Below, in pieces: positions 39,502 to 43,646 of a stretch of DNA of 64,000 bases. The stretch is taken from contig MKRX01000010.1 of assembly GCA_001898035.1 (NCBI GenBank), positions 45,513 to 109,512 of the forward strand, written 5' to 3'. The notes under the pieces are model-generated. The model worked only from the letters and a program-made list of their open reading frames with translations. It made no database searches and was not told the origin of the DNA. Source of the stretch: Armatimonadetes bacterium 55-13. Lineage in GTDB: Bacteria > Armatimonadota > Fimbriimonadia > Fimbriimonadales > Fimbriimonadaceae. The first letter of the stretch is position 1; the number at the start of each line of letters is the position of its first letter. A program made the translations under genes and the position numbers.

Positions 39502-39530
39502 TTGGCGAATAGCAAAGCCATTGCTATACT
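39502..39530 (+). promoter_or_regulatory. Housekeeping promoter of zinc-ribbon gene
   Basis: TTGGCG (39502-39507), exactly 17 bases, TATACT (39525-39530) with an extended -10 TG at 39522-39523. It precedes an SD (GGGAGG) and ATG 39558. Strong sigma-70 type promoter. Confidence 0.8.
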
Positions 39531-39557: not shown

Positions 39558-40271
39558 ATGCCATCGGTACAACGTAGCTCAGATGTCGTAGAGTCCCACT
39601 CGGAACGCGCCGTGATGTCAGGCATCGCCGGCGTGATCCTCTTGGCCCTGGGAGGGGTCCTGTGGATGTTCCGCGGAGACGGAATGTTCTCCATTCTTTC
39701 CCTGATGCTCATGGCTGGCGGACTCGGCGCCGTAATTTATGCCGCCGTGTGTATCGCTCAGGCGCGCAAGGTTACTTGCTTCAAAATTGAGTGTCCCTAC
39801 TGTCACTCCGCCGTCAGCCTCCTAACTGCGCCGGATCGTGACGTCTCCTGCCGGTCCTGCCTCCGAATGATTCCCATCGTGGACGGTAAGCCTATCGCGG
39901 TAACTCAGGTCAGGTGTGGTTATTGCAATGCACTCAACTATTACAGCGATAAAACCATCGTTCTCCTCTGCGAGGAATGTAATCACGAAATTCCCATATC
40001 CCGAGCCGACGGCCAAGTCGCGCACTCCAGGTTCGCCGTAGTCGATGATGAGCGCTTTTATGAACTCAAGCTCGTCGGATTCGAGCATCCAACCGAAGAT
40101 CTCCTCTCGACTCTCCAGCAAGCCCTTGCCCTCAATCGCAACCAAGTTAAAGATATGCTTGGCGAGTTGCCCGTCACTCTTCTCTCCGGAATCCCGAAGA
40201 AGAAAGCTGAAATGCTCACGGCGCAATTGAACTTGCACGGCGCTAGCTGTCAGTTCTATCCGCTGAACTAG
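39558..40271 (+). CDS. Membrane protein with two zinc ribbons and an L7/L12-like C-terminal domain
   Basis: 237 residues. Two TM segments (MSGIAGVILLALGGVLW and ILSLMLMAGGLGAVIYAAVCIAQ) lie near the N-terminus. Two zinc-ribbon-like units follow: ECPYC...CRSC near 78-100 and RCGYC...CEEC near 118-140. The last 50 residues (NQVKDMLGELPVTLLSGIPKKKAEMLTAQLNLHGASCQF) look like the C-terminal domain of ribosomal L7/L12, in which a VKxxVxxLP...ikeGvsKeeAexikxxLexaGAxV pattern is conserved. GGGAGG lies upstream of ATG 39558. Such zinc-ribbon/L12-like proteins may tether a complex at the membrane. Function unknown. Confidence 0.85.
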   Translation: MPSVQRSSDVVESHSERAVMSGIAGVILLALGGVLWMFRGDGMFSILSLMLMAGGLGAVIYAAVCIAQARKVTCFKIECPYCHSAVSLLTAPDRDVSCRSCLRMIPIVDGKPIAVTQVRCGYCNALNYYSDKTIVLLCEECNHEIPISRADGQVAHSRFAVVDDERFYELKLVGFEHPTEDLLSTLQQALALNRNQVKDMLGELPVTLLSGIPKKKAEMLTAQLNLHGASCQFYPLN

Positions 40272-40341: not shown

Positions 40342-40403
40342 GTAAAGGCGGCCAAGTGTCTGCGGACATGGAAGCGCTCAAATTCAGGAGGTTTCTCTCA
40401 CAG

Positions 40404-43400
40404 ATGAAGTTACTTCGGGAAGCGATGCGCCAGACACTTGCTCACGCATCGCTCAGAGGGCTCTATACAGTGTTGGCGATCATCGCCTCACTCATCGTGC
40501 CCGCCGCCGCCTTTGCCGGCGAGGCAGATGTCAAACTAACGTTCTCCAATAGCGACAAGTTGTATCTCTACATCTCGCTCGGTATTGGCATTCTCACCAT
40601 CATCGGCGCGTTCATGCTGCGCTCCGCCGTTCTCAAACGGTCCCCTGGTAGTGAGAAGATGCAATCGGTTGGACAGGCCATCCGAGAAGGCGCACTGGCG
40701 TACCTAACCCAGCAGATCAGGCTGATGGTCGTCTTCGTCGTCATCCTCGGTATCGGCCTTTACTTCCTCACCAATAACGTTTTGGTTCCGGTCGCCTTCG
40801 TCGCCGGTGTTGCCGCCTCATACTTCGCCGGATTTATGGGCATGCTCACCGCCGTCGACGGCAATATGCGAACCGCTCATGCCGCTCTGACGAGCTACAA
40901 GAGATCGTTGGAAACGGCATTCCAAAGCGGAGCGGTCGCCGGTCTCTTCACGGTTGGTATGGGCCTTCTGGGCGCCACTATCATCCTCCTCGTTGGCGGA
41001 GACCACGCCATGACCCTCCTCGTCGGATTCGGCTTTGGTGGCTCCCTGGCTGCACTCTTCATGCGAGTCGGTGGAGGCATCTTCACGAAAGCCGCAGACG
41101 TCGGCGCCGACCTCGTCGGCAAAGTCGAAGCTGGCATCCCCGAGGATGACCCCCGCAACCCTGCCACCATCGCAGATAACGTGGGTGACAACGTCGGAGA
41201 CTGCGCAGGAATGGCCGCCGACGTTTTCGAGTCCTACGAAGTCACCCTGGTCGCCGCCATTGTATTGGGCGCGGCCACCGCATCCATCTTCGACCAGACC
41301 ACCTGGATGAAGCTCATCATCTTCGCTCTGATGGCGCGCGGAGTTGGTATTGTCGCCTCCGTCATCGGCATTTTCAGCGTGAAAGGGACCGACGATATCG
41401 ATGCCGACCCGCTGAAGAAGATCCGAACAGGCTTCTACGCATCCGCTGGCGTCGCTGGCATCGCTACCCTTGTCCTCGCCTACTTCATGATGGGTGGAAC
41501 GGGTAGCCCGATCAAGACTTCCAAATTGGAGTCCATCGAGGCGGTCCGACTTCCCTCCTACGAGAAGATACGATCGATCCGAGATAAGATTCTCGCCGAT
41601 GACAAGGAAGGCAAGCTCACTCAATTCCCAATTGAGCAGATGCAAAAGGACTCCGAAATTGTCGCCATGGGGCTCGACAAACAAGACGGCGTCCAAGCCA
41701 TTCAAACCGCGCTTTCCGCGGACACCTCGGTGACCATCACCCCGAAGCCGATTGAAGGGTTCAAGCCTGTCGACTTCACGGACCCCAACGATGTAGTAGC
41801 CAACTACACCACCGTCATTCCGGCGGCCAAGCCTGGCGACAAACCAAAGTTCGTATCGCTAAAAGACGCTTACAGCAAGGAACAACTTCAATACTTCCGG
41901 CTGAGCGTCACTCAAAAGAACGCCACGGCCCCCGCCGCTCCAGACACTCGAGAAGTCTATGCTGGACCGATGACCGAATCGGTCCTGGATGCCCAGATCA
42001 AAGGTGCAGAAAGCCTCAAGATCGAAAAAATCCACGCATACCCGGTTAGCCTGTTCTACAACAGCGAGAAAAAAGAAATTCTCGCCGCGGTATCGGACGA
42101 CTCCAACAAACCGCTCAATTCGCTCACTATCCCCGTCCCGCAGTTGATGGTGTGGAAAGAGGACGCTTCAACTCTCGATAAAGCCTACAATTCGGCGACG
42201 CCCGATCCCAACGCGCCACGTCCATTGAGTAGCGTAAAGCTTGCGGTGAACACGTCTCAGGTTGTGCCCTGGTACATGTTCTTCGCTGCCATCGCCTTCG
42301 GTCTGATCATGGCGTTCATCATTGAGTGGCTGACGGACTACTACGTATCAACCCACAAGAAACCGGTTCAGGAAGTCGCTGGCGTATCCAACGCGGGGCC
42401 TGCCCCCATGATCATCCAAGGCTTCGCCTATGCGGCGGAATCCAGCGTGTTCATGGTGTTCGGCATCGTGCTCGCACTCATCGCGCCTCTCTTCTTCTTC
42501 CCACCTGCCACATACGGCACATACATCCTCAGCTTCTATGGCGTCGCCCTCGTAGGCCTCGGTCTCTTGACGACCACTGGCTACGTACTGGCGATGGACA
42601 CCTTCGGCCCCATCTCAGACAACGCTCAAGGCGTGTACGAGATGTCGGGTGAAGGCCATGATAACGAGTACGGCAGCAAAGCCGTTCAGCGACTCGACGC
42701 CGCAGGCAACACAACGAAAGCTCTCACCAAGGGATTCGCCATTGCCACCGCCGTCGTTGCCGCCGTTGCTCTGTTCCACTCCTATCTTGAGGATGCGAAG
42801 CTGGGAACCCTTGGCCTTCGACTCGACCTACCCGAGATCTTCCTCGGACTTCTCATCGGCGGCGCCGCACCTTATCTCTTCTCCGCTTCCACGATCAACG
42901 CAGTAGGCCGAGCCTCCTTCCAGTTGATCAACGAAGTGCGTCGTCAATTCCGAAGAGATCCGGGAATTATGGCGGGCACCAGCAAGCCAGACTACGCTTC
43001 CTGCGTCAGCATCGTAACCGCTGCTGCTCAAAAGGAACTTCTCGGCCCTGGAATCCTCGCGATCGCTCTTCCTGTCGCCGTTGCCTTTGGCTTCTCGATC
43101 GGTAAGCCGCAGGTCGCCATCAATGGTGAGATGTATAACCTCACCGGTGCGCAGGCCCTTGGCGGATTCCTCGCCGGAGCCATCCTCAGTGGCCAACTTA
43201 TGGCCGTCCTTCTCGCCAACTCCGGCGGCATGTGGGACAATGCCAAGAAGCTAATAGAAGATGGACTCTATGGCGGAAAGGGAAGCGAAGCCCACAAGGC
43301 TGGCGTGGTCTGCGATACCGTCGGTGATCCTTTCAAGGACACCGCGGGCCCTGCCCTCAATCCGCTGATCAAGGTCATGAACTTGGTCGCGCTGCTGCTC

Positions 43401-43646
43401 GCGCCGTTTGTAATCAAACCGCTCGGCAACCCTGCGTTGATCGGAATCACCGTCGGCGCCATCATTCTCCTCGCAATCGCAATCTTCATTTCCAAGAAAG
43501 GCTCCCTTTCGGAAGAAATGCAAAAAGTTGCGGCTGAAGAAGGCGATGCTCATCCCTCTCCCGCTCACGCTGTGATTGAGCCCTCAAAGCCCACCCAGCG
43601 AATCACCGTCGACGACGATGAGCCGGTGAGCGAAGAGACGCACTAA
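40404..43646 (+). CDS. hppA: Membrane-bound H+-translocating pyrophosphatase, enlarged
   Basis: Membrane PPases couple PPi hydrolysis to H+ (or Na+) export. This one has 1080 residues against about 650-800 usual. The catalytic loop KVEAGIPEDDPRNPATIADNVGDNVGD is at about 240-265; a second conserved region, EGHDNEYGSKAVQRLDAAGNTTKALTKGF, lies near 752-778, and the final conserved loop is VVCDTVGDPFKDTAGP. Lys after GNTT at the position of residue 460 in the family (GNTTKA) is the signature of K+-independent enzymes. A hydrophilic insertion at about 366-618 (nt 41500-42258) interrupts a loop facing the periplasm by topology. ATG 40404 is preferred because AGGAGG is 12 bases upstream; GTG 40356 and ATG 40368 are alternatives. 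Family secure, insert unexplained. Confidence 0.97.
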   Translation: MKLLREAMRQTLAHASLRGLYTVLAIIASLIVPAAAFAGEADVKLTFSNSDKLYLYISLGIGILTIIGAFMLRSAVLKRSPGSEKMQSVGQAIREGALAYLTQQIRLMVVFVVILGIGLYFLTNNVLVPVAFVAGVAASYFAGFMGMLTAVDGNMRTAHAALTSYKRSLETAFQSGAVAGLFTVGMGLLGATIILLVGGDHAMTLLVGFGFGGSLAALFMRVGGGIFTKAADVGADLVGKVEAGIPEDDPRNPATIADNVGDNVGDCAGMAADVFESYEVTLVAAIVLGAATASIFDQTTWMKLIIFALMARGVGIVASVIGIFSVKGTDDIDADPLKKIRTGFYASAGVAGIATLVLAYFMMGGTGSPIKTSKLESIEAVRLPSYEKIRSIRDKILADDKEGKLTQFPIEQMQKDSEIVAMGLDKQDGVQAIQTALSADTSVTITPKPIEGFKPVDFTDPNDVVANYTTVIPAAKPGDKPKFVSLKDAYSKEQLQYFRLSVTQKNATAPAAPDTREVYAGPMTESVLDAQIKGAESLKIEKIHAYPVSLFYNSEKKEILAAVSDDSNKPLNSLTIPVPQLMVWKEDASTLDKAYNSATPDPNAPRPLSSVKLAVNTSQVVPWYMFFAAIAFGLIMAFIIEWLTDYYVSTHKKPVQEVAGVSNAGPAPMIIQGFAYAAESSVFMVFGIVLALIAPLFFFPPATYGTYILSFYGVALVGLGLLTTTGYVLAMDTFGPISDNAQGVYEMSGEGHDNEYGSKAVQRLDAAGNTTKALTKGFAIATAVVAAVALFHSYLEDAKLGTLGLRLDLPEIFLGLLIGGAAPYLFSASTINAVGRASFQLINEVRRQFRRDPGIMAGTSKPDYASCVSIVTAAAQKELLGPGILAIALPVAVAFGFSIGKPQVAINGEMYNLTGAQALGGFLAGAILSGQLMAVLLANSGGMWDNAKKLIEDGLYGGKGSEAHKAGVVCDTVGDPFKDTAGPALNPLIKVMNLVALLLAPFVIKPLGNPALIGITVGAIILLAIAIFISKKGSLSEEMQKVAAEEGDAHPSPAHAVIEPSKPTQRITVDDDEPVSEETH

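Follow-up and report, generated by a model that had tools for sequence, protein, structure and literature searches.

An L7/L12 C-terminal-type domain on a two-helix, double zinc-ribbon membrane protein of the Armatimonadota

Described relatives and the architecture of the protein

The C-terminal domain (CTD) of ribosomal protein L7/L12 is the ribosome's recruiting hand. In bL12 (PF00542, structure 1ctf) this domain comes after an N-terminal dimerisation domain and a flexible hinge. Zinc ribbons on transmembrane (TM) segments are found in YgzB, which we take to be the gene name for DUF2614/PRK02935 and which is covered by a 118-position model without an L12 domain. Domains of the L12 type have also been described outside the ribosome. 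Excerpts of one study describe single-TM proteins that carry either a cytoplasmic zinc ribbon and a helix, or an HTH and a ClpS-ribosomal L7/L12 domain (PMC12419801), and excerpts of another describe vWA proteins, from conflict systems of bacteroidetes, into which L12/ClpS domains are inserted (PMC7159879).

The protein analysed here is encoded in the window, that is, the whole stretch of 64,000 nucleotides from Armatimonadetes bacterium 55-13. Where bL12 has its dimerisation domain and hinge, the window protein has TM helices and zinc ribbons. Like the single-TM proteins it is anchored in the membrane and carries a non-ribosomal domain of the L12/ClpS type, here in a part predicted to be cytoplasmic, and ribbon variants exist among them too; according to the excerpted text, however, those proteins have one TM segment and the ribbon and L12 domain are apparently alternatives, whereas the window protein has two TM helices, two ribbons and the L12 domain (PMC12419801). 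The vWA conflict proteins likewise carry the domain outside the ribosome but differ in architecture, with no TM anchor mentioned in the excerpts (PMC7159879). A narrow literature search did not come upon the window protein's full set of parts in a single protein in the excerpted text of either paper (PMC7159879, PMC12419801). TM proteins with cytoplasmic L12/ClpS domains are thus already in print, and the present architecture is a further variant. The features of the locus are as follows.

39502..39530, + strand: promoter-like site TTGGCG-17-TATACT, with TG before the second hexamer (9/12 matches)
39558..40271, + strand: whole gene, ATG start and stop included, for a 237-aa protein with two TM helices, double zinc ribbon and L12-like domain
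39606..39668, + strand: TM helix 1, about residues 17-37 (hydropathy; AF2 helix 7-37)
39690..39767, + strand: TM helix 2, about residues 45-70, with RKV directly after (hydropathy; AF2)
39792..39860, + strand: predicted zinc ribbon 1, C79, C82, C98 and C101 (cysteines invariant in 73/73 rows)
39915..39980, + strand: predicted zinc ribbon 2, C120, C123, C138 and C141 (cysteines invariant in 73/73 rows)
40059..40262, + strand: L7/L12 C-terminal-type domain, residues 168-235, beta-alpha-alpha-beta-alpha-beta (profiles, AF2)
40131..40151, + strand: LNRNQVK motif, residues 192-198, on the turn between helix 4 and helix 5, where E. coli L7/L12 has LGLKEAK (78-84)
40356-43646, downstream of the gene: H+-pyrophosphatase, 1096 aa

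The reading frame 39558-40271 is open over 237 codons. AF2 modelling of the full protein from an alignment of 62 sequences (the window protein and 61 loci) gave a mean pLDDT of 81.5 and a pTM of 0.46, with helices at residues 7-37 and 45-70 and two ribbon-like strand sections between residues 75 and 129. Each predicted zinc site has two CxxC knuckles. Two TM helices and two zinc ribbons had been proposed in the initial annotation, and both the AF2 model and the invariance of all eight cysteines agree with it. Residues 151-160 form a linker that is loose in the model (pLDDT below 50), and the orientation of the domain behind it is undefined there. The compact C-terminal domain consists of E168-175, H180-190, H194-202, E206-212, H214-226 and E229-235; its elements were unchanged when the domain was modelled alone from 61 sequences (pLDDT 85.1), and in these models their order is that of the L7/L12 CTD.

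The content of K+R per residue is 0.133 before TM helix 1, 0.072 in the loop and 0.168 after TM helix 2. Because the outer flanks are richer in K+R than the loop, both termini are predicted, from this charge count, to lie on the cytosolic side; the net negative charge of the N-terminal tail (D/E 3.86 vs K/R 2.76 per row) weighs against this. The promoter-like site is separated from the start codon by 27 bases, and 0.8 such sites would be expected by chance in the region. Its -35 and -10 hexamers (CTTG.CGA and TATACTG) are kept in two congeners, which makes it likely that the gene has its own promoter; of the strong promoter claimed in the initial annotation, the presence of a promoter-like site is supported.

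The N-terminal half of the family resembles YgzB. The NCBIfam model PRK02935 matched 14 of 23 distant members at E<=0.1 (best 5.3e-7), and Pfam DUF2614 matched 14 of 46 members and 12 of 23 distant members at E<=1, while the window protein itself falls below the curated cut-offs of both (16.8 of 108 bits for NCBIfam and 13 of 21 bits for Pfam). A second combination of membrane anchor and L12 CTD part is present in the same genome (G000:C6; L002:1450-2142:-), in a 2TM-domain protein (PF13239, 2.3e-12) that carries the helix 4/5 hairpin of L12 (G000:C6:152102-152194; PF00542, 3.8e-5, positions 9-38 of 67). Unlike the window protein it has the two-helix hairpin only, in which the equivalents of K65, I69, K70, R73, L80 and K84 are kept, as judged by eye.

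Identity of the C-terminal domain

In an unguided PF00542 scan of the entire genome the true bL12 scored highest (109.8 bits) and a different membrane protein came second (26.4 bits); the window gene took third place (20.0 bits, E 0.0036). As bL12 has a separate locus (G000:C11), the window protein is an additional protein and not the bL12 of this genome. Searched singly, the window protein scored 17.7 bits against a Pfam curated cut-off of 25.9 bits. By hand tallies of the result tables, the family gene was matched by PF00542 at E<=0.1 in 56/61 genomes, its own included (all except G010, G022, G027, G030 and G039), and exceeded the curated cut-off in 14/61. Single-member searches at E<=1 matched 44 of 46 members (best 1e-7) and 17 of 23 distant members (best 2.4e-8), the other six missing it, and the NCBIfam L12 model matched 15 of the 23 distant members (best 1e-7).

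Profile-to-profile comparison gave the same assignment. Aligned by hhalign against 28 bL12 domains of relatives (28 of 30 loci, L197 and L210 being left out; one sequence of these 28 seems shifted in register), 62 family domain sequences reached a probability of 94% and a score of 40.0 over 67 gap-free columns, as against a peak score of 16.6 and probability of 3.6% in 40 column shuffles. The position of K84 is kept, as are P91 and A103. A sequence-only profile search of 177,635 PDB sequences put E. coli L7/L12 (1ctf) at the top of its ranking (E 3.9e-6); another six bL12 sequences came next, ahead of the first unrelated one, a designed TPR (E 0.0011). Structural searches agreed: Foldseek ranked 1ctf first for the full model (E 5.7e-4, TM 0.90, rmsd 1.3 A) and second for the domain model, after the Deinococcus L7/L12 chain 2zjq_5, and the ten best chains by VIA-align were all bL12 (Z 11.8 to 10.6), with 1ctf tied first (Z 11.8). 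The window protein is therefore taken, from profiles and predicted structure together, to carry a complete L7/L12 CTD-type fold that is homologous to the L7/L12 CTD. An L7/L12 CTD on a membrane zinc-ribbon protein is what the initial annotation had read from the sequence, and structure prediction returned that fold and not a differing one. Its interval, 40110-40268, corresponds in frame to residues 185-237 and begins within the first helix; the true start of the domain is residue 168 (40059), so beta-1 and the start of alpha-1 had been missed.

ClpS belongs to the same fold class, and its chains score well structurally, with a TM to target of 0.55-0.69 against the full model in Foldseek and Z values of 8.3-10.1 in VIA-align, interleaved with the lower bL12 chains; PBP3, presumably unrelated, reached Z 8.0. 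If the likeness extended to function, the domain could act as a ClpS-like adaptor that brings substrates to the Clp or FtsH protease at the membrane. The hhalign comparison with 26 ClpS sequences of relatives (26 of 30 loci, selected by a motif filter) gave a probability of 2.3% over 23 columns, vs 94% over 67 columns for bL12, so that ClpS was rejected as the nearest relative although the folds are related; bL12 against ClpS of relatives gave 19.8%. The genome also has two separate ClpS-type hits (G000:C3). We consider a protease adaptor, which the initial annotation had also entertained, very improbable. The two ClpS-type hits lie side by side (G000:C3:77985-78472), and at least two ClpS hits were counted in 39/61 genomes by hand tally.

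The Corynebacterium supercomplex chain 7q21_K, which ranked 49th with the full model in Foldseek, was set aside as a precedent, since it is probably a match to the TM hairpin. It was absent among the best 50 matches listed with the domain alone, and excerpts of the supercomplex paper name no L12 domain.

Conservation of the factor-contact face

VIA-align pairs residues 8-75 of the domain model with 1ctf 53-120, so that window residue r corresponds to E. coli residue r-114. Conservation was counted over 73 of 78 aligned rows (50 from the window's order and 23 distant), after removal of two rows without the domain (L044, L251), two truncated rows (L074, L249) and one duplicate (L053, of L030); L243 had been omitted earlier as a duplicate of L034. 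The basic factor-contact positions of E. coli L7/L12 considered here are K65, K70, R73 and K84, and EF-Tu reportedly contacts helices 4 and 5 of L7/12 (Kothe et al. 2004). The equivalents of K65, K70, R73 and K84 are basic in 9, 3, 2 and 71 of the 73 family rows, respectively. In bL12 of relatives the four residues themselves are kept in 27, 26, 26 and 27 of 28 sequences, and a basic residue is present in 28, 27, 27 and 27. The equivalent of position 66 has turned acidic (E/D in 58/73 family rows), that of position 73 is Q in 57/73, and P205 (E. coli P91) is invariant in 73/73. As the equivalents of K65, K70 and R73 are mostly non-basic, the classical L7/L12 grip is mostly gone.

These counts bear on a reading that follows the initial annotation, namely that the domain recruits a translation GTPase (of the EF-Tu, EF-G, IF2, RF3 or LepA type), or the ribosome, to the membrane. 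The homology to L12 in profile searches and the retention of K/R at the K84 equivalent are in keeping with such a tether, and some distant members have an NLKEAR-like turn that is close to the GLKEAK of bL12; such turns also accord with an origin from a genuine L12 domain. The ribosome-related genes obg and rsfS are found close to the family gene in f5. The bL12 CTD has been described bound to RF3 and RF1 (excerpts of PMC6076264). Against the tether stand the loss of three basic contacts that bL12 of relatives keeps and the acidic position 66, and, according to excerpts of PMC6110070, K65 mutants that do not preserve the charge lose ribosome activity: K65R is fully active, and activity declines through K65H, K65Q, K65A and K65E in that order. 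The counts thus speak against recruitment of a translation GTPase as first proposed, and we regard it as distinctly unlikely.

Within the order (50 rows) no other seven-residue stretch of the domain is as well conserved as LNRNQVK (rank 1 of 62), and R194, V197 and K198 are among the ten best-conserved columns there. Over all 73 rows it drops to rank 8 of 62 and the first rank goes to IPKKKAE, with which helix 6 begins; among the 23 distant rows it falls to 43 of 62, and helix 6 and the last turn are best conserved there. Several of the best columns (L172, L186, A217 and P205) are probably core residues. This pattern suggests that the helix 4/5 turn is a re-specified interface within the window's order; because of its rank in the distant rows, a single interface cannot be claimed for the whole family.

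Alternatively, the domain may merely homo-oligomerise or stabilise the protein, with no outside partner. In conflict proteins the L12/ClpS domain has been termed 'multimerizing' by a 2020 survey, as excerpted (PMC7159879). In one genus the protein consists of the other parts alone, and distant families do not conserve the putative interface, both of which would fit such a role. On the other side, the sharp motif on one turn within the order suggests a specific interface, and dimerisation of L7/L12 is not known to involve the CTD. A domain with no partner is, in our view, unlikely.

Our preferred reading, which we put forward tentatively, is that the protein is a membrane-anchored cytosolic adaptor that docks a partner. 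The two-helix anchor would place the double zinc ribbon on the cytosolic face of the inner membrane and, behind the loose linker, a docking domain derived from the L7/L12 CTD, likewise in the cytosol. In the window's order the partner would most likely be gripped via the helix 4/helix 5 turn, the same face that L7/L12 uses; in distant families the interface may differ. Since the side chains of the gripping face have changed, a canonical GTPase of elongation, initiation or release is an improbable partner. The architecture, the conservation and the loss of three of the four basic contacts are shown, as are fold and homology by prediction and profiles; the adaptor role, the cytosolic side and the use of the helix 4/5 face are what we infer. 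Against this reading count the low rank of the turn in distant rows, the probable core position of several of the best columns, the genus that lacks the domain, the merely local conservation of the gene neighbourhood and the undefined orientation of the domain in the model.

Distribution, gene neighbourhood and implications

The window protein was matched in 60/61 genomes, its own included. At E<=1.6e-19 the family model matched 109/113 genomes of the window's order and 147/291 genomes of the phylum Armatimonadota (hand tallies of result tables); weaker matches in the phylum probably represent bL12 or other zinc ribbons. The four order genomes without a match are two of 1.5 Mb (G030, G157) and two incomplete ones (G151, G174), and three of the 109 matches are partial (G036, G154, G161). 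One genus (G022, G148, G149, G150) matched over the TM and ribbon part only, without the L12 domain, as read from the proteins of G022 and G148 and judged by match range for G149 and G150; the domain-less proteins (loci L044, L251) are about 152 aa long. Members in four further families (f12, f13, f14, f19) have TM helices, two ribbons and an L12-like end, and one distant-family member carries extra hydrophobic sequence. A contig scan for occurrence outside the Armatimonadota, run with a single peptide pattern, yielded 96 stretches, 62 of which were confirmed, all in records titled as Armatimonadota groups or 'bacterium' except for one. The exception (L088) is titled 'Methanoregulaceae archaeon isolate SJ84' and carries the family gene; the record title is probably mislabelled. 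A tblastn search of plasmids with one distant member gave no match.

Upstream of the window gene are an ECF sigma factor gene and a gene without a Pfam match (STN-like by eye), and downstream is the H+-pyrophosphatase (H+-PPase), in which a long insert splits the PF03030 match in two; most H+-PPase reading frames of relatives exceed 1000 codons. The sigma factor, the STN-like gene and the H+-PPase recur as neighbours in the window's family, and several f5 loci have obg, rsfS and a TPR gene directly upstream. The neighbourhood listing comprised 102 loci, in which many genomes are counted twice. No gene cluster spans the loci examined and conservation is local only, so the neighbourhood was dropped as a clue to the partner. 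In some distant genomes a glutaredoxin-like gene (L230, L237, L240, L241, L246) and/or a bL28 gene in the opposite orientation (L237-L241) was seen after the family gene.

The protein could also be an accessory subunit of the neighbouring membrane H+-PPase. Naive ORF calling has the H+-PPase gene directly after the family gene, on the same strand, in 22/66 loci (an antisense ORF was preferred in four loci and the family gene missed in two). All 22 are in families f1 and f5, and the adjacency was absent from those more distant loci that were inspected. The H+-PPase of one genome (G044) bears an L12-like domain within its insert (L048:6821-10216; G044:C7:48799-49023), with E values of 0.0026 against PF00542, 3.8e-8 against the family-domain model with distant rows, 0.0022 against the narrower family-domain model and 2.9 against the bL12 model. 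By phmmer its closest matches are domains from its own family (3.6e-7 to G042 and 1.6e-5 to G044), and it appears to have been copied from the domain in the neighbouring family gene. It is also the only clear copy among 42 H+-PPases, some of them partial, and none was found in the other 39 of the 40 genomes searched. From what we take to be known H+-PPase topology, the insert loop should be periplasmic, opposite to the predicted side of the window domain. With the adjacency restricted to two families, the fused copy a single case and the two domains on opposite predicted sides, an accessory subunit appears quite improbable.

An unnamed conserved family gains a defined, testable face here, and a membrane protein that occurs in almost every sampled genome of one order, with an altered L12 grip, offers a clean test of how this domain was re-specified. 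A bolder version, which we consider improbable, would make the protein a membrane counterpart of the ribosomal stalk, with a translation-linked GTPase or the ribosome docked via the re-specified L12 face; if true, translation would be coupled to membrane insertion or to the energy state alongside the normal bL12. Should the partner prove to be translation-linked, the family would represent a new route for bringing translation to the membrane.
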